45,305 nucleotides of DNA from Acidimicrobiaceae bacterium (GTDB taxonomy: Bacteria; Actinomycetota; Acidimicrobiia; Acidimicrobiales; Bog-793): contig PMVZ01000249.1 in assembly GCA_003166375.1 (NCBI GenBank), forward strand, positions 8,247 through 53,551. Direction: 5' to 3'. Under the pieces are notes generated by a model. The model was not told the DNA's origin and made no database searches. It was given only the letters and a program-made list of their open reading frames with translations. The position numbers and the translations under genes were made by a program. This document shows, one piece after another, positions 3-10,228 of this stretch. How positions within the stretch are numbered: position 1 is the first letter of the stretch; each line of letters opens with the position of its first letter.

Positions 3-1490
3 CCACCCGTTGATCCTCTAGCTTTGGCTCTCGCCACATCGCAGCTCTACGGCCATGGCATCTATCTAGGGTCCTCGCTCGGGGCTCGAAGCGCCCCTGT
101 GTTCGCCCGCCCGCAGGACGGCGTGCTCTTGTTGGGACCACCACGTTCGGGAAAGACGGCTGCCGTCGTAGTTCCGAACGTTCTCGCGGCTTGCGGCCCG
201 GTGATCGCAGCCTCCACCAAGGCCGACGTCCTTGCCTCGACCTGGGCGGCCCGGTCCCGTGTCGGCCCTGTACTGCTCTTCGACCCCAGCGGCTCGGTGC
301 CTTGTCCGCCAGGAGTAGAACCGGTTGGCTGGTCGCCACTCGCTCTCGCAGGCACCTGGGACGGAGCGGTCCTCGTCGCCGAGTCCATGGTTCGGGCCGC
401 GCGCCCAGGATCCGATCGAGGCGAAGCATCGCACTGGAGCGAACGAGCAGGGGCGCTCCTCGCCGCCGTCTTCCATGCAGGAGCGCTCGAGCAACGGCCG
501 GTCCAAGACGTGCTTGCCGCCGTCAACCGCCACGATCCCGACGAGGCGCGGGCCTCGCTCGCGCGTCACGGTGCCGATCGGGCACTCGATCTCCTGGAGG
601 GCATCGTCGCCACCGAAGGGCGGGAACAAAGCGGGATATGGTCCACGGCCTCAGGTGTGCTCGCCGGTTATCGGACCGATGCCGCTCTCGCCTCGGCACA
701 AGGCCGGATGCTCGATGCGGCCGAGCTCGTGGGCAGCCGGACGACGCTGTATGTCTGCGCCGGCAGCGATCATCAAAGACTCGCCGCTCCTCTCGTCGCA
801 GGACTGCTCCGCGAAGTGCGCTCGGCCGTCTATCACCGCTCGCTGACCGCGATCGTGGCGGGGTCCGCCGATGGCGGCGATGCCTGGACTCGAGCGGCTC
901 GGGCACCTTCAGGGCCTCCCCTTCTTCTCGTGCTCGACGAATTGGCGAACATCGCGCCCCTCCACGACCTCCCGACGCTCGTTGCGGAGGGTGGCAGTCA
1001 AGGTGTCGTGACGCTGGCCTGCCTGCAGGACCTTGCTCAGGCCCGGGCGCGCTGGGACCGCGAGGCGGACGGGTTCCTGTCGTTGTTCGGGACAAAGATC
1101 GTGTTTCCGGGCATCGGCGACACTCGGACCCTCGAGGCCGTCTCTCTCCTCGCCGGCGAGCACGAGGTGCCCACGATCTCGGTCACCCGCGGGCCACGCC
1201 GCAACGGGCTGCGCGCCTTTGGGAAGGGCACGACCCGGACCGTGTCGATGCGCAAGGACCGCATCCTTCCTGTCGACGCCATCGCCCGGGGGCATCCTGG
1301 ATGCGTGCTCGGCGTCGAGGGCGCCGAGCCTGGTTTCCTTCAGATGACGCCGTGGTACTCGAGCTCACCGTGGCGCGAAGCGGTCACCGACGGCCGAGCG
1401 CGCGCTCTGAAGCGGCACGGTGTGGTCATGTCCCCTGCCCCGGTCCGGGCGGTCACGGCAGGTCGCGACCGGACAGTCGGCTTGCACTGA
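3..1490 (+). CDS. Type IV coupling protein (VirD4/TraG/TraD family), 5' partial
   Basis: This is a hexameric DNA-pumping ATPase of the inner membrane that couples a relaxase-DNA complex to a type IV secretion channel. Counting from the TTG at 24, Walker A (GPPRSGKT) is at residues 38-45 and Walker B (LLLVLDE) at about 300-306. It is followed by the conserved ANIAPLHDLPTLVAEGGSQG stretch and a TraM-recognition-like region ending in LFGTKIVFPG. The reading frame is open to the left edge (at least seven more codons), and the N-terminal membrane helices usual in this family are missing, so the true start lies upstream of the window. It converges on the MOBF relaxase, its expected partner, with 76 bases between the stops. 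No other secretion genes are visible. Family assignment is firm; the exact start is unknown. Confidence 0.9.
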   Translation, partial: PPVDPLALALATSQLYGHGIYLGSSLGARSAPVFARPQDGVLLLGPPRSGKTAAVVVPNVLAACGPVIAASTKADVLASTWAARSRVGPVLLFDPSGSVPCPPGVEPVGWSPLALAGTWDGAVLVAESMVRAARPGSDRGEASHWSERAGALLAAVFHAGALEQRPVQDVLAAVNRHDPDEARASLARHGADRALDLLEGIVATEGREQSGIWSTASGVLAGYRTDAALASAQGRMLDAAELVGSRTTLYVCAGSDHQRLAAPLVAGLLREVRSAVYHRSLTAIVAGSADGGDAWTRAARAPSGPPLLLVLDELANIAPLHDLPTLVAEGGSQGVVTLACLQDLAQARARWDREADGFLSLFGTKIVFPGIGDTRTLEAVSLLAGEHEVPTISVTRGPRRNGLRAFGKGTTRTVSMRKDRILPVDAIARGHPGCVLGVEGAEPGFLQMTPWYSSSPWREAVTDGRARALKRHGVVMSPAPVRAVTAGRDRTVGLH

Positions 1491-1566: not shown

Positions 1567-3942
1567 TCAGCGAGCCCGGCCCGGCGCCTCCGGCGTGCGG
1601 CGACCCACCGCCGGCACCGGCCGTTCGATCGTGCGGACGGCGTTGCGAAGCTTGAGCCTCGTCTCTGCCACGTCGCCGGCGGCAGCAAGCCCGAGGGATC
1701 GCAGCGTGGTTCGATCGCCGACGGCGTGCTCTTGGTCGTCGATCGACCAGCGGCGGCGGAAGGCCTCGATCGCCGTCGCTCCGTCGCGCCATGCCGAGCG
1801 ATCCGAACCGCTCGACCGAGTCGCCCCGAGCTCGGAGACGAGGTATCGCGGCCGGGCAACCTCTGCTGCTCGGCCGAGCCGCTCGGCCACTGAGCACTGT
1901 GGCGAGACGATCGCGACATGGACACATTCTCCGGGCGCGAGATCCGTGACACCGTTCGGCAGCGAGCCCAGCACAACGAGCTGGCCACACGGGTCTGAGC
2001 CTGTACGCCACCCCGCCAGCCGGCTCGCCAGCCGGCGCGCCTCGACTACCTCGTCGGGTGAGCCACCGGCGTCGCGGACCGAGGCACGCAACGAGGCGAC
2101 GACCGCGTCGTCGCTCGCGACGACAAGCGGCCGTTGCCCCGACGCTCGGCCCCGCTGCCATGTCGTCAGCAGTGCTTCGCGCGCGGCGGGGCCGTCAGCG
2201 ACGACGAGGACCTCGCGACCAGCAAAACAATGGCTTTCCGGCGCAACCAGCCCGCGCCCAGGGACGCTTGGCACATCAGAGCTAGCACCGGGCGCGAACA
2301 AAGCGAGGTCGGGCGCAAGGACCGCGGCCGTGCCGAATCGGGCGTCGAGCCCCGCCGATGGGGCGAACAGGATCACCCGGCCTCCTCCGGCCAACGACGA
2401 CCCGACGACCGACGAGAGCTCCCATGGCCCCATGCGTTGCGCCTCGGCCACTACGACGACGCCGGTCCTGGCGCAACCCGGCGGCACGTCGGCGACCGCC
2501 GCCGTCTCGATGCCGGTGACCGACTCGAACGAGGCCGCGGCCTGGCGTCCGGGCGCGACCGCGACGACAGGCGCGCACGGGCTGGACGAGAGCCCGCCGA
2601 TCGCGTCGAGCGCCGGAAGCCTCCGACCGGGGCGATAGGCGAGGAGCTCAACTGTCTCCGGGTGGTCGCGTACGAGCCTCGTGAGACTTTCGTGGATCTC
2701 GAGAACCGCAGGAGTCGTGTACACCGGCTCGACGACACCTCCCGGGATCCCCCGTCCAGAGGTGTTCTTGAGGACCCGGCCGAACGGGCGGGAGGTCGTC
2801 GGGACCGGGATGACGCGTCCCTCGGCCAGGAGCGCTCCCACGTCGCGCTCGACCTCGGTGACCGGTGCACCAGACGGCAAGGACGCACAGCGCGCCCGAA
2901 TGAGATCGCCTCGCCGGCACGTGCCGTCCCGGGCGGCAACGCCCTGCTCGCCGAGCGCTCGCTCGGCCCAGCGGTCCTCGAGGCGGGCGTCGGACTCACC
3001 CCTGGCGACCGGTTCGGGCCCGGTGGCACGCGACCGCCGGACGACGGCGCCAAGCCGGGCGTCGGACACACCGAGCCGGTACGAGCGCTCGCGCCAGCCC
3101 ACCACGAGGTCGTCGTAGGGGGTCCCCAGATCCTTGTCCGGCCTAGTCCTCACCGAAGCGATGCGTGCAGCTCGCGGACCGGACTGACCCGCTTGGGCGA
3201 GGGCGGTCTCGATCTCGGCCGAGCGGCGGGAGAAGGCTCGCCTCACGCCCGGGTCGATTCCGGCGAGGTCGGCCCAAGCACCTTGGAGCTCGCGCCACGA
3301 GACACCCAGGCGGCCCGTGAGCTCGGAGCGCAACTGCGTCTCGTAGAGGTCCCGGGCCGTGCCCAGCTCGAGGAACAGCCCACGCGCGTCGAGTGCCGAC
3401 CAGCGACCGTCCGGTCCCGGTGCCAGGTTCGCGACGAGCACGTGGCTGTGAAGGTGGGGGTCGGGCGCGCGGCTGATTCTGTGGAGAAACGCCGCGGCCA
3501 CAAAGCCGCCGGCCGGGATCGAGGACGCTGCTTCGCCGCGTGCCAGGCGGCGCCGGACGCGGGCGCCACAGCGCTCCAGATACCCGAGCGCGGCCGCTGC
3601 GGCTTCCTCGTGGCCAGCGCGTACCTGCGTTCGCACGTCCTCGGGACCTAGCGCATGCAGCACGCTCACCGACTTCGGGGTCGAGTACGTGCAGTCATAG
3701 GCGGCCACGCGAACCCTGTCGTGATGCGCAGAGAGCACCTCGCCCGTGACCGGGTCGACGCCGGTGAGCAGCACACGCAATCCGGGGCCGTCCACCGTCC
3801 CGGCGAGGCCGAGCGCCGCAGCCGCCTGCCCGAGCCAACGCCCTTCGGGCTCGGCGAGGACACCGGCTTCCTCCCGGCCGGAGGCCACGGTCGCCAAGTA
3901 GTAGTCCTCCCTGCCGCGAGCCAGCTTGGCGACGCTCAGCAC
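1567..3942 (-). CDS. MOBF-type (TrwC/TraA) conjugative relaxase with degenerate helicase half
   Basis: This relaxase should nick and covalently bind the transferred strand at an origin of transfer. The N-terminal 300 residues are a TrwC domain: candidate catalytic tyrosines Y14/Y15 (REDYYLATV), the YDCTYSTPKSVSVL motif near 82-95, and the metal-binding triad H163, H165, H167 (DPHLHSHVLVAN). The usual YTTP linker follows near 408. The second half resembles the RecD-like helicase, but the Walker A position reads AVAPGRQAAAS (461-471), without the GKT/S, and the DEAQ box reads AEAQ (about 499-502), so ATPase activity is probably lost. The start is GTG at 3942 with only a weak ribosome site. Length (791 aa) is shorter than typical TrwC/TraI. 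It lies 53 bases downstream of the PafBC gene on the same strand and could be read from it. Confidence 0.88.
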   Translation of the reverse strand: MLSVAKLARGREDYYLATVASGREEAGVLAEPEGRWLGQAAAALGLAGTVDGPGLRVLLTGVDPVTGEVLSAHHDRVRVAAYDCTYSTPKSVSVLHALGPEDVRTQVRAGHEEAAAAALGYLERCGARVRRRLARGEAASSIPAGGFVAAAFLHRISRAPDPHLHSHVLVANLAPGPDGRWSALDARGLFLELGTARDLYETQLRSELTGRLGVSWRELQGAWADLAGIDPGVRRAFSRRSAEIETALAQAGQSGPRAARIASVRTRPDKDLGTPYDDLVVGWRERSYRLGVSDARLGAVVRRSRATGPEPVARGESDARLEDRWAERALGEQGVAARDGTCRRGDLIRARCASLPSGAPVTEVERDVGALLAEGRVIPVPTTSRPFGRVLKNTSGRGIPGGVVEPVYTTPAVLEIHESLTRLVRDHPETVELLAYRPGRRLPALDAIGGLSSSPCAPVVAVAPGRQAAASFESVTGIETAAVADVPPGCARTGVVVVAEAQRMGPWELSSVVGSSLAGGGRVILFAPSAGLDARFGTAAVLAPDLALFAPGASSDVPSVPGRGLVAPESHCFAGREVLVVADGPAAREALLTTWQRGRASGQRPLVVASDDAVVASLRASVRDAGGSPDEVVEARRLASRLAGWRTGSDPCGQLVVLGSLPNGVTDLAPGECVHVAIVSPQCSVAERLGRAAEVARPRYLVSELGATRSSGSDRSAWRDGATAIEAFRRRWSIDDQEHAVGDRTTLRSLGLAAAGDVAETRLKLRNAVRTIERPVPAVGRRTPEAPGRAR

Positions 3943-6107: not shown

Positions 6108-7328
6108 CTACCTCCCTACCTCCCGTTCCGCGGTCCGGGTCGCGACAATCCCGGCGGTGAAGCGCTCGAGGGCGTGCACGAAATGCACGGTCCTCGGCGA
6201 CCAGAAGTTGTCGAAGGCATGCTGGGTGAGCGGCAGCTCTACATACGCGACCGGCTGGGTGCTGCGGGCCCGCAACACAGCAACGAACGCGCGGGCACTC
6301 TGGACGGGGACGAGGACGTCGTTGCGGCCGTGGACAACGAGGAACGGGGGCGCTGACTCATTCACCCTCGAGATCGGCGATGCCGCCTCGAATGCCTCGG
6401 CAGCGCCCTGCTCGAACACTCGCCTTTCCAAGATCGGCGTGAGGTTGGCGTTCCCGATCTTCTCGGGGTCCACGAAGTCGTAGACGCCGTAGAGCGGGAT
6501 GCACGCCGCAACTGTGGTGTCCTCGTCTTCGAATCCGGGCTGCCAGGCCGGGTCGTTGGCTGTGAGCGCCACGAGGGCGGCGAGATGGCCGCCGGCCGAC
6601 CCGCCCGACAAGAACACGAGACGGGGATCGCCTCCGTACTCGGCGACGTGCTTCTTCACCCACGCGAGCGCCAGCTTGCAGTCGAGGACATGGCGTGGCC
6701 ACCTCGCCGTCGGGCTCAGAGCGTAGTTGGCGGTAACGCACACAAAGCCCTTCCCGGCGAGATGCTCGAGCATCGGGATGCCCTGCTCGCGCTTGTCCCC
6801 CATCACCCAGGCACCGCCGTGGAAGTACAAGAGCACCGGCGCTGCTACAGCCCTTTCAGGTCCGGCTTTGCGATAGATGTCGAGGCGATGGGCGTGACTT
6901 CCGTCGTCGGCATACGCGATGTTGCGAAGCCGTTCGACGCCTCTCGGCCGGATCGGCACAGCTACAACGACGCGGCGGGAGTGTTGCAGGCCCCAGCTCC
7001 ACCGCTGTGCGACCTGGCCCGCCTCGGCAAGCGCCGACTCGAAGCACCGACGCGATCGCAGACCGGAGGCGAACTGTGCCACGAGCCCCCCGCACGCCAT
7101 TGCTGCCAGCGCAAGGCCCACCCAGCCCGGCCAGCTCCCCAATCCACCCTCCAAACCACAACCGATCATCGCGCCGACAACGCCGGCGACGACGTGCAGT
7201 GGTGCCTCGCCGACGATCCAGCTCGGCACGAAAGAAAAGCTCGAACCCACCGGTCCGCGCAGCGGCAGAAGGGAGGTCAGCGAGAGCACGAGCGCCACCA
7301 CGCCGACCGCGAAGCACGCCCAATTCAC
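6108..7328 (-). CDS. Membrane-anchored alpha/beta hydrolase (HSL/BD-FAE-like esterase)
   Basis: This is a probable carboxylesterase acting at the membrane. About 90 N-terminal residues form hydrophobic segments (roughly 5-22, 43-60 and 66-88). The catalytic domain follows, with the oxyanion motif HGGAW (170-174), nucleophile S244 in GGSAGG, acid D337 in HGRND, and H370 in TQHAF. This is a complete catalytic triad of the hormone-sensitive-lipase type. The start is GTG at 7328. It is the first gene of a leftward set with pafBC. Its start is 26 bases from a DosR-box-like palindrome that may act in both directions. The physiological substrate cannot be told from sequence. Confidence 0.85.
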   Translation of the reverse strand: MNWACFAVGVVALVLSLTSLLPLRGPVGSSFSFVPSWIVGEAPLHVVAGVVGAMIGCGLEGGLGSWPGWVGLALAAMACGGLVAQFASGLRSRRCFESALAEAGQVAQRWSWGLQHSRRVVVAVPIRPRGVERLRNIAYADDGSHAHRLDIYRKAGPERAVAAPVLLYFHGGAWVMGDKREQGIPMLEHLAGKGFVCVTANYALSPTARWPRHVLDCKLALAWVKKHVAEYGGDPRLVFLSGGSAGGHLAALVALTANDPAWQPGFEDEDTTVAACIPLYGVYDFVDPEKIGNANLTPILERRVFEQGAAEAFEAASPISRVNESAPPFLVVHGRNDVLVPVQSARAFVAVLRARSTQPVAYVELPLTQHAFDNFWSPRTVHFVHALERFTAGIVATRTAEREVGR

Positions 7329-7352: not shown

Positions 7353-7372
7353 GTAGGGACTTTCGGCCCTAG
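7353..7372 (+). promoter_or_regulatory. DosR/DevR-box-like palindrome with possible -10 at 7393-7398
   Basis: The core reads TAGGGACTTTCGGCCCTA (7354-7371), an imperfect palindrome matching the mycobacterial DosR consensus (GGGACT half site and its complement CCC). A CAAGAT hexamer at 7393-7398 would place the start of transcription near 7405 and the box centre near -42.5, a usual DosR activating position. The operon it precedes ends with a DosR-like regulator whose recognition helix matches that of DosR. The match to the consensus is seen directly; binding and start site are inferred. Confidence 0.6.
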
Positions 7373-7451
7373 GGTTCATGACGAGCCGCAGACAAGATGC
7401 GATGGGAACGTGACGGTCGTGAGTCACCTGTCAGTTGAGGGGGGAACGAAT

Positions 7452-7613
7452 TTGCTCGCAGCGCTCGTGCATCTAGGTGGGACAGGCAAGTACATCAGCT
7501 GGGGAGTCGTCCAGATCTCGCTCTCGAACCTGATCATCATCGCTGTGATGATCGTCATGCTCGTGGCCGCGATCGCGCTGCCGTTCCCCAAGCATGAAGC
7601 GAGGCGGAAATGA
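7452..7613 (+). CDS. Small single-pass membrane protein (53 aa) of the cytochrome b operon
   Basis: I do not recognise this protein by name. It has 53 residues: a short N-terminus with HLGGTGKYISWG, one strongly hydrophobic helix (about residues 26-44, LIIIAVMIVMLVAAIAL), and a basic tail (KHEARRK). The start chosen is TTG at 7452 because GAGGGGGG lies 7 bases upstream; an in-frame GTG at 7410 would add 14 residues. Its stop overlaps the cytochrome b start (ATGA at 7610-7613), so the two are translationally coupled. Position and form suggest a small subunit or assembly factor of a membrane complex, comparable to the tiny subunits of b6f complexes. That role is inference. Confidence 0.7.
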   Translation: MLAALVHLGGTGKYISWGVVQISLSNLIIIAVMIVMLVAAIALPFPKHEARRK

Positions 7614-8476
7614 GCACACCCTCGGTCGAGACTTTCGCCACCGTCGCTCAGAAGGGGACCTGGACCGGCAAGTTCCGCGAGAAGGCGGTCGAGGCGTTCC
7701 CACCGGACCGCTTGCTGCCGGACCGCCAACCCGCCTACGTCTCCTCGTGGGCCTACGTCTTCGGAGCCTTGTCCATCGGGGCGTTCATCGTCGTGCTGTT
7801 GTCCGGAGCCGTGCTCGCCGTCGAAGGCCCGGCATGGTGGCACAAGTCCAATGTCGGGTTGTTCGTGAACTCGCTGCACATGTGGAGCACCGAGTTCTTC
7901 TTCATGTTCATGGTCGTGCACCTCTGGGTCAAATTCTTCATGGCGGCGTGGCGCGGCCGGCGCAAGGCGACCTGGATCACCGGCGTGATCGCGTTCGCAG
8001 TCTCCATCGGGGCGGCGTTCACCGGTTATCTCTCCCAGCAGAACTTCGACTCGGAATGGATCGGCACCCAGGCGAAGGACGGCATCAACTCGACGGGCGC
8101 CGGTGCCTTCTGGAACGTTCTCAACTTCGGCCAGATGCTGATGTGGCACATCGTGCTGCTCCCGCTGGTCGTGGCGCTCGTGATCGGGCTCCACGTCCTG
8201 TTGGTCAGGCGCCGAGGCGTCGTCCCACCTTTCGCTCCGACCGAAGCTCAGCTCGCAAAGGCCGGGGTCTCCCTGACCACAACTGTCACGGCCGCGGCAT
8301 CCCTGCCGCTGGTGCAAGAACCGGTGGAACCTCTGCCAACCGAACAGCCCACGCCACAAGAGCCAGCGACCACGCCTGGCCTGCAGGAGCCGACGGCGCA
8401 ACCATCTCCTCTGCAGGAGCCACCGCCAGGGCTGCCGCAGGAGCCGTTGTGGAACCTGCCGGAGGACCCGTCATGA
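7610..8476 (+). CDS. Cytochrome b6-type di-haem b subunit (N-terminal cytochrome b domain)
   Basis: This is an integral membrane quinol-linked electron-transfer subunit with two b haems. Four hydrophobic helices span about 45-72, 84-111, 122-140 and 172-198. Haem ligands are H90 and H104 in one helix (SLHMWS...VVHLW) and H180 and H195 in another (MWH...GLH). There are 13 residues between the first pair and 14 between the second; the 14 spacing is typical of b6 rather than bc1 cytochrome b. The conserved RGRRKATWITG loop is present. There is no cysteine, so no b6f-type haem c-i. After residue 210 comes a Pro/Gln/Glu-rich tail with repeated QEP. No Rieske protein, cytochrome c1 or PetD is nearby. 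The start ATG overlaps the preceding stop, and the stop overlaps the next start. Confidence 0.88.
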   Translation: MSTPSVETFATVAQKGTWTGKFREKAVEAFPPDRLLPDRQPAYVSSWAYVFGALSIGAFIVVLLSGAVLAVEGPAWWHKSNVGLFVNSLHMWSTEFFFMFMVVHLWVKFFMAAWRGRRKATWITGVIAFAVSIGAAFTGYLSQQNFDSEWIGTQAKDGINSTGAGAFWNVLNFGQMLMWHIVLLPLVVALVIGLHVLLVRRRGVVPPFAPTEAQLAKAGVSLTTTVTAAASLPLVQEPVEPLPTEQPTPQEPATTPGLQEPTAQPSPLQEPPPGLPQEPLWNLPEDPS

Positions 8477-9507
8477 GCGCGACCAGTGCTTCCGACAACC
8501 CTCGCACCCACAGGTCTCGCCGCTTCAGGCCGGACCGTGACGTCGTCGAGTGGCAGGGTGCCTACAGGCGCTACGACGTGGTCAAGGAGGTCTTCGTCTC
8601 CTTCCTTGTCGTGCTTGTCTTGGTGGTCGTCTGTGCCGTCGTGTTCTCGTCGCCCGACGAGCACCCGGTGACCGTGAAATCGTGGTCGAACGCTGCCCCA
8701 GTGGACTTCGCCCAGACTGCGATGACCGAGCTCGACGGAACCAGCGGCGTTGCGACCTACGGGCCGCCGTACACGCACACAGCGGGTGCAGGACAAATGC
8801 TCGGCCCGATCTCGATCGAGCGGACTGCCGGAGTCAGGATCCCTATCAACACAGCCCAAGACTTCGTGTTGAAGCCGCTTGCGACACTGCCGGACCGCCC
8901 AGCTCTCGACGTTGCTCTCGCCGAGTACCGAGACGCTTCGGCTGCGCAACGGGCAAGTTGGGATGCCGCCTACGAGAACGTGGTCGCCCACGCGACTTTC
9001 TCCAATGGCCAGCTTGTAGTGAAGGGCGGCCCTTACGGCCCGGTGGGAGTCCTGATCGGCAACCTCGAGTCGATGGCGCGCAGCGGAGCCCTTGACGGGG
9101 CGCTTCTCGCCTCGCCCCAGCTGTACGCGACCAACTACGCCAATCCGTTGCTGTTCATCGCGGACGGCACATATCTGGCAGATCAGGCAGGCCTGCGTCA
9201 TCTCCAGGGAGATCAATGGGGCATGATGAACGAGACCGGGAACTTCCCCGGCCAGGCGTGGCTGTGGCTCTACACCTTGTGGTACCAGGTCCCTCCGATG
9301 AAAACCTCGTCCAACGGAGACGTCGAGGTGTGGGCGATCATGATGGTGCTCACGGTGCTGCTGGCGCTGTTGCCGTTCATCCCCGGATTGAGGTCCATAC
9401 CGCGGCGGCTGGGCGTGTATCGCCTCATCTGGCGCGATCACTACCGCTCGCTAGGTCCCGACATCCTTTCGCAGATGCCTCCCGGTCGTCAGTCGCACCG
9501 CCGTTAA
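8473..9507 (+). CDS. Two-helix membrane protein with large extracytoplasmic domain, putative partner of cytochrome b
   Basis: I cannot assign a family. The start is ATG at 8473, overlapping the cytochrome b stop (ATGA). It has 344 residues: a basic N-terminus, helix 1 at about 39-59, an outside domain of about 225 residues with no haem-binding CxxCH and no iron-sulfur cysteines, helix 2 at about 286-304, and a basic cytoplasmic tail. The only cysteine lies in helix 1. The end of helix 2 and the following LPFIPGLRSIPRRLGVYRLI region remind me of the C-terminal ends of some cytochrome b partner subunits, but the PEWY quinol-site motif of PetD is absent. The overlapping start implies stoichiometric synthesis with the cytochrome. 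A new type of complex subunit is inference. Confidence 0.72.
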   Translation: MSATSASDNPRTHRSRRFRPDRDVVEWQGAYRRYDVVKEVFVSFLVVLVLVVVCAVVFSSPDEHPVTVKSWSNAAPVDFAQTAMTELDGTSGVATYGPPYTHTAGAGQMLGPISIERTAGVRIPINTAQDFVLKPLATLPDRPALDVALAEYRDASAAQRASWDAAYENVVAHATFSNGQLVVKGGPYGPVGVLIGNLESMARSGALDGALLASPQLYATNYANPLLFIADGTYLADQAGLRHLQGDQWGMMNETGNFPGQAWLWLYTLWYQVPPMKTSSNGDVEVWAIMMVLTVLLALLPFIPGLRSIPRRLGVYRLIWRDHYRSLGPDILSQMPPGRQSHRR

Positions 9508-9535: not shown

Positions 9536-10228
9536 ATGGCTTTACGAGTGTTCTTGGTAGACGATCACGAGATCGTCCGAAGCGGCTTGCGGAGAATGCT
9601 CGAAGCCGACGGCGACATCGAGGTCGTCGGTGAGGCCGGAACCGCTGCAGAGGCGACCACACGAGGCATCGCGCTCGGTCCCGATGTGGCGGTGCTCGAC
9701 GTCCGGCTCCCGGACGGCGACGGAATCGAGGTCTGCCGTGAATTGCGCTCGCGATTGCCTGGAGTCCAGTGCCTGATGTTGACGTCGTTTGCCGACGACG
9801 AGGCCCTCTTTGCCGCCATCATGGCCGGAGCGTCCGGGTACGTGCTCAAGCAGATCCGAGGCAATGACCTGTTGGACGCCGTGCGTCGAGTCGGGCGAGG
9901 CGAGTCCCTCATCGACCCGTCGATGACAAAGCGTGTCTTCGACCGCCTCCGGGATGGGCCCAGTCGCGACGAACGCCTCGAGCGGCTCTCGGATCAAGAA
10001 CGGCGTGTTCTCGACCTCGTCGCCGAGGGTCTGACGAACCGGCAGATCGCCGACCGCCTCTACCTGGCGGAGAAGACGGTCAAGAACTATGTCTCGAGCA
10101 TGCTCTCCAAGCTCGGGATGGACCGGCGCAGCGAGGCTGCCGCCTACGCCGCCAGGCTGTCGGAACGCCAGAGCGCCAGGGAAGCAGCCAGGCGAGCCGA
10201 CGGTGGCGGCTTCGGGTCGGGCTCCTGA
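9536..10228 (+). CDS. DosR/DevR-like NarL-family response regulator
   Basis: This is a two-component transcription factor. The receiver domain has D9, D10, phospho-acceptor D55 (VLDVRLPDGDG), T83 and K105, each offset by one from mycobacterial DosR. The LuxR helix-turn-helix (about 150-205) carries GLTNRQIADRLYLAEKTVKN; K180, K183 and N184 match the DNA-contacting residues of DosR. By family knowledge DosR responds to hypoxia, NO and CO through haem kinases DosS/DosT; no kinase lies in the window, so this is an orphan here. It starts 28 bases after the membrane protein gene with a GGAGGG ribosome site, so it is likely the last gene of the cytochrome operon, which carries a matching DosR-like box. 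Confidence 0.9.
   Translation: MALRVFLVDDHEIVRSGLRRMLEADGDIEVVGEAGTAAEATTRGIALGPDVAVLDVRLPDGDGIEVCRELRSRLPGVQCLMLTSFADDEALFAAIMAGASGYVLKQIRGNDLLDAVRRVGRGESLIDPSMTKRVFDRLRDGPSRDERLERLSDQERRVLDLVAEGLTNRQIADRLYLAEKTVKNYVSSMLSKLGMDRRSEAAAYAARLSERQSAREAARRADGGGFGSGS

Follow-up and report, generated by a model that had tools for sequence, protein, structure and literature searches.

A DosR-type box upstream of a cytochrome b operon in an Acidimicrobiaceae bacterium and its relatives

A palindromic DosR-type box, GTAGGGACTTTCGGCCCTAG, lies ahead of an operon for a b6-like cytochrome b in the window (the whole 45,305-nucleotide stretch of DNA analysed here). It is almost certain that the DosR-like regulator encoded by the last gene of this operon really docks at the box. 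Most likely the box is a site of DosR/OsdR-type activation, with feedback that is positive because the operon includes the regulator gene. Taken as a whole, the explanation in which the regulator encoded at 9536-10228 binds the box and activates its own operon is, in our judgement, very probable.

The operon and its promoter

The relevant features, in window coordinates, are:

6108-7328, minus strand: divergent LipQ-like esterase, GTG start 26 bases from the box, outside the conserved unit
7353-7372, no strand assigned: DosR-type box GTAGGGACTTTCGGCCCTAG, unchanged in the related locus L249 and with one difference in L248; also the consensus from 73 orthologous upstream regions
7393-7398, plus strand: -10-like hexamer CAAGAT, first base 21 bases after the 20-base box, unchanged in L248 and L249
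7405, plus strand: predicted transcription start, placed from the hexamer position, with the box centre at -42.5
7452-7613, plus strand: small one-helix membrane protein, first operon gene, likely TTG start after GAGGGGGGA
7610-8476, plus strand: cytochrome b N-terminal/b6-like protein (Cytochrom_B_N_2), with its two pairs of histidines at spacings of 13 and 14
8473-9507, plus strand: p4, conserved membrane-anchored protein of 344 aa, cytochrome b partner, 541 relatives in genome_contigs
9536-10228, plus strand: DosR/DevR/OsdR-type response regulator, last operon gene, with D55, K180, K183 and N184; DevR 3c3w is the best solved match

The box is centred at 7362.5 and is an imperfect palindrome, reading GGGAC...GGCCC and not GGGAC...GTCCC. 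The 18-mer quoted in the original prediction corresponds to 7354-7371; the box was found where that prediction had placed it, with CAAGAT 22 bases past the 18-mer and, on the other side, 26 bases between the 18-mer and the esterase GTG start (7328, minus strand). If the T of the hexamer is placed at -7, transcription would start at 7405, with the box centre at -42.5, and the conserved -10 spacing would set this start-proximal box over the -35 region. No consensus sigma-70 promoter or consensus -35 element was found in the operon region. Under a generic mycobacterial matrix the box is the narrow top match in the window, scoring 12.8 against 12.1 for the next position; since this matrix alone gives a narrow lead, the comparative evidence is what convinces. 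When the window is aligned with L248 and L249, the box and CAAGAT stand out as conserved islands in a region that is otherwise drifting. One clear box is present in the window, and a second box was seen in the relative L283.

The gene for the small membrane protein precedes the cytochrome gene in most orthologous loci. Its start is ATG in L248 and L249, at a position that reads ACG in the window (7446), which may use the TTG at 7452 instead (window 7446-7454). The third gene product, p4, has no Pfam or NCBIfam match, and its predicted model, of mediocre quality (mean pLDDT 66.7), gave no fold match among solved structures. It carries a near-invariant stretch, QWGMMNETGNxPGQAWLWLYTxWYQ, is present in hundreds of actinobacterial contigs and adjoins a b6-like cytochrome b in every examined locus; p4 is possibly a new subunit of a cytochrome b complex. 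Elsewhere in the window, a conjugation coupling-protein-like ORF (24-1490, plus strand) and a relaxase-like ORF (1567-3942, minus strand), both read from sequence only, may represent a mobile element near the operon.

The regulator gene starts 28 bases past the p4 stop, and no terminator-like site was found between the two on the plus strand. The protein combines Response_reg and GerE domains (a NarL-type receiver and a LuxR-type DNA-binding domain) and shares 58% identity with M. tuberculosis DosR across 206 residues. Its best match among solved structures is DevR 3c3w (E=9.8e-72; 244 bits vs 156 for VraR). D55 aligns with the phosphorylatable D54 of DosR, and the helix AEKTVKNYVS is intact with K180, K183 and N184, which bears out the claim that the DNA-contacting K, K and N of DosR are kept. 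By these homologies, the last gene of the operon encodes a DosR-type regulator.

We infer that this regulator binds the box and that it activates, as opposed to represses, the operon. A sensor kinase, oxygen- or redox-responsive by homology (a candidate lies on contig C292), would phosphorylate the regulator at D55; a regulator dimer would then occupy the box at the -35 region, with its centre ~42.5 bases upstream of the start, and bring in RNA polymerase at the CAAGAT -10 element. The resulting mRNA would encode the small membrane protein, the b6-like cytochrome b, p4 and the regulator, and because the regulator is encoded in the operon, activation would raise its level too, giving positive feedback. 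As the regulator directly follows p4 with no terminator-like site in the 28 bases between them, such feedback is likely in the subgroup made up of the window, L248-L252 and L268. A bound regulator could instead repress the operon, either as negative feedback or as an aerobic repression relieved by phosphorylation, and a box that overlaps the -35 region is also compatible with this. However, a fixed spacing to the -10 element and the lack of a consensus -35 are typical of activator-dependent promoters, and in DevR promoters the start-proximal box over the -35 element is activating (PMC3029386); we consider repression unlikely.

Conservation of the box with the cytochrome module

Among 296 genomes sampled from the class, 32 contain the module of small protein, cytochrome b and p4. 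With the generic mycobacterial matrix, a significant box was found upstream in 15 of 25 loci of regulator-bearing genomes and in 0 of 7 loci of genomes lacking a close DosR homologue (one-sided Fisher p ~0.006, calculated by hand), and about ten regulator-bearing genomes had no significant box before the operon. A wider set was drawn from 541 confirmed module relatives in genome_contigs, 80 of which were fetched (L248-L327). A Gibbs sampler run with no prior motif on 73 non-redundant upstream regions returned GGGACTTTCGGCCCTA, also given as GGGACTTTCGGCCCTAGT, with an information content of 15.8 bits, where shuffling gave 7.5 at most, and the window site scores near the top under this de novo motif. 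The strictest redundancy cut leaves 16 sequences; the motif persists, with most of them still carrying a box.

The geometry of the promoter is likewise kept, in agreement with the proposal that the box is centred near -42.5. An xAxxxT hexamer is found at offset 19 or 20 from the box in 51 of 58 box-bearing promoters, compared with 5.4 on average and at most 15 after shuffling, and in 48 of 55 once the window and its two near relatives are removed; these counts overstate independence, as the promoters are related by descent. Compared across these relatives, the sequences show a box that is under selection, lies at a fixed distance from the -10 element and tracks the regulator. Since site and promoter element recur at fixed spacing before the same genes in dozens of related bacteria from soil, bog and freshwater, the oxygen-shortage switch of the tuberculosis bacterium appears in this lineage to control a set of respiratory genes.

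The regulator directly follows p4, as in the window, in L248-L252 (except where uncalled) and in L268; in most other loci it is located elsewhere than the cytochrome module. L250 (4296-8592) holds a compact cluster of a Usp gene divergent from the box, the cytochrome module, the regulator, a further Usp gene and a pyridoxamine-oxidase-like gene. Many of the relatives in L248-L327 have the module adjoining genes named from sequence as CtaA, CtaB, CtaG and a TlpA-like gene, and these putative haem A synthesis and oxidase-assembly neighbours are consistent with a respiratory role of the module.

The box might mainly serve the divergent LipQ-like esterase, or both directions at once, given the distance of 26 bases between box and esterase start and the fact that divergent DevR promoters are present in M. 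tuberculosis (PMC3029386). The esterase is, however, absent from the other conserved loci, where the box stays with the cytochrome genes, and the conserved -10 element is on the cytochrome side. Among the 80 named loci the esterase stands beside the operon only in L248 and L249, and no match to it was found in 33 loci from other genomes. With a place beside the operon in two close relatives only, it was rejected as a conserved partner, and conservation gives no support to the original idea that it shares the box. We regard either of these roles for the box as improbable.

Sites and regulators across genomes

The window lies within contig C84 of a 3.67-Mb draft genome that is 84% complete. Site listings rest on one strict pattern, GGGACYTTNGGYCCY, which has 4 exact matches in this genome against 0 for the reversed control. 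Besides the cytochrome operon, the exact sites precede a POR operon (C7), cydA (C29) and an aldehyde dehydrogenase gene (C197), the last at a distance of about 215 bases. On C7 (L210:464-6277) a perfect box lies ~95 bases before the likely ATG of a pyruvate:ferredoxin oxidoreductase operon comprising POR-gamma/alpha/beta and two NADP-oxidoreductase-like genes, and the hexamer CAACAT occupies the offset that CAAGAT has in the window. The perfect box on C29 (L209:3795-3842) is only 28 bases before the annotated cydA ATG and does not fit activation from -42.5 unless translation begins leaderless at the next (second) ATG. On C103, a site with one mismatch is followed by CAAGAT at the family offset; it precedes a gene which, going by its sequence alone, encodes a cyclic-diphosphoglycerate-synthetase-like GTPase. 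Allowing two mismatches gave 48 matches vs 72 for the control, no excess, which leaves near-perfect sites as the informative ones. The POR/NADPH and cytochrome bd genes are probably under this regulator's control as well.

It had been anticipated that sites would fall upstream of Usp and ferredoxin-like genes. The ferredoxin part stood, in the form of the POR/NADP-oxidoreductase operon; no strong box was found near the Usp genes of this genome, and a Usp association was seen in the relative L250.

Across the order, 148 genomes were sampled, 80 with a DosR orthologue and 68 without. Perfect sites numbered 111 vs 17 control matches in the regulator-bearing genomes and 21 vs 12 in the remainder, and the site count follows regulator presence over all 148 genomes (Mann-Whitney p=1.3e-9; p=0.33 for the control pattern). 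Of 90 distinct perfect sites inspected, 48 (53%) lie outside ORFs as called by a simple script, vs 13% of positions drawn at random (p=3e-19). The outcome that was to speak against the box, sites of equal score occurring at random frequency, was thus seen neither in the scan of this genome nor among the 148. A perfect box lies just before the regulator gene in two genomes (G002 and G190); a box generally placed at the regulator's own promoter was unsupported in the loci scanned, which were not gene-oriented, so that boxes could be missed.

A different NarL-type regulator could use the box, as other members of this family are present in the same genome and single perfect sites also turn up in some genomes that have no DosR orthologue; in G059 there are three, with no close DosR homologue found, perhaps owing to an assembly gap. 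Against this, the operon regulator is the only close DosR homologue in its genome, the next most similar being only 40% identical, while site number follows the DosR orthologue and none of the seven module loci from genomes lacking it has a significant box. Such a substitution is very improbable. That the palindrome arose by chance is scarcely credible: another window position scores nearly as high with the generic DosR matrix, but chance is contradicted by the conservation, the fixed spacing and the genome-wide enrichment.

Two HisKA_3 kinases are encoded in the genome, and the sensor is unlinked to the regulator here. The one on C292 (L212:3773-5281) has a PAS-GAF-HisKA_3-HATPase arrangement, in which the PAS domain is closest to FixL and the catalytic part best matches DevS/DosT. 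The position of the haem-ligand histidine is kept in the PAS domain; the distal arginine of FixL is not. All 10 genomes with homologues at E<=1e-60 bear the regulator, and in 5 of the other 9 genomes (G371, G285, G223, G383 and G173) the homologue is close to the regulator. From its domains and distribution, we infer that the unlinked C292 kinase is the best candidate for the regulator's partner, with oxygen as the signal it would sense.

Relation to known systems and implications

The system shares with M. tuberculosis DosR/DevR a palindromic GGGAC...CCC box, a start-proximal position over the -35 region and a regulator that is 58% identical, has the same contact residues and is autoregulated (the position and the autoregulation being predictions in the present case). 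It differs in that the regulator is inside the cytochrome operon, apparently without a linked kinase, the target is a cytochrome b module, the box arm is GGCCC and not GTCCC, and one box is present, in contrast to the cooperative use of two or more at many DevR promoters. The predicted sites of S. coelicolor OsdR include CGGGACCTTCGGCCCT and AGGGACCTTCGGCCCC (PMC5069765), which are nearly identical to the window box in the core, so the box type itself is already known. The OsdR paper gives nar2, Usp and developmental genes as targets and does not contain the word cytochrome (PMC5069765); the counterpart of the OsdR/OsdK regulon with its Usp and pyridoxamine-oxidase-like genes is seen here in the relative L250. 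In comparison with FixL and DosS/DosT, the candidate kinase has a FixL-like PAS domain with the histidine kept and a DosS/DosT-like catalytic part, but is PAS-GAF and not GAF-GAF, has no distal arginine and is unlinked to the regulator. The cytochrome resembles cytochrome b6 and the cytochrome b of bc1 complexes in its Cytochrom_B_N_2 domain and two histidine pairs, with the b6-like 14-residue second spacing; unlike in those complexes, the operon has no recognisable subunit IV, Rieske protein or cytochrome c, and the partner proteins, the small protein and p4, match no known family. A search of the open-licence literature returned no paper naming both DosR and Acidimicrobi, and both the lineage and the cytochrome target of this DosR-type circuit appear to be undescribed.

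With these results, the low-oxygen circuit of DosR/OsdR reaches into an actinobacterial class that branches deeply and consists largely of uncultured organisms from soil, bog and freshwater. The circuit also gains a concrete target in respiration, with its promoter layout kept across dozens of genomes. A cultured relative, Acidithrix ferrooxidans (L327), has both module and regulator, with a weak box, which opens the circuit to bench testing. More tentatively, the DosR-type switch of the Acidimicrobiia may be primarily one of the respiratory chain, with the unnamed cytochrome b complex of small protein, b6-like cytochrome and p4 as its top-conserved target alongside cytochrome bd and POR, and the mycobacterial dormancy regulon might then be a lineage-specific elaboration of an older role. 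The system offers a route to asking what DosR controlled before mycobacterial dormancy.
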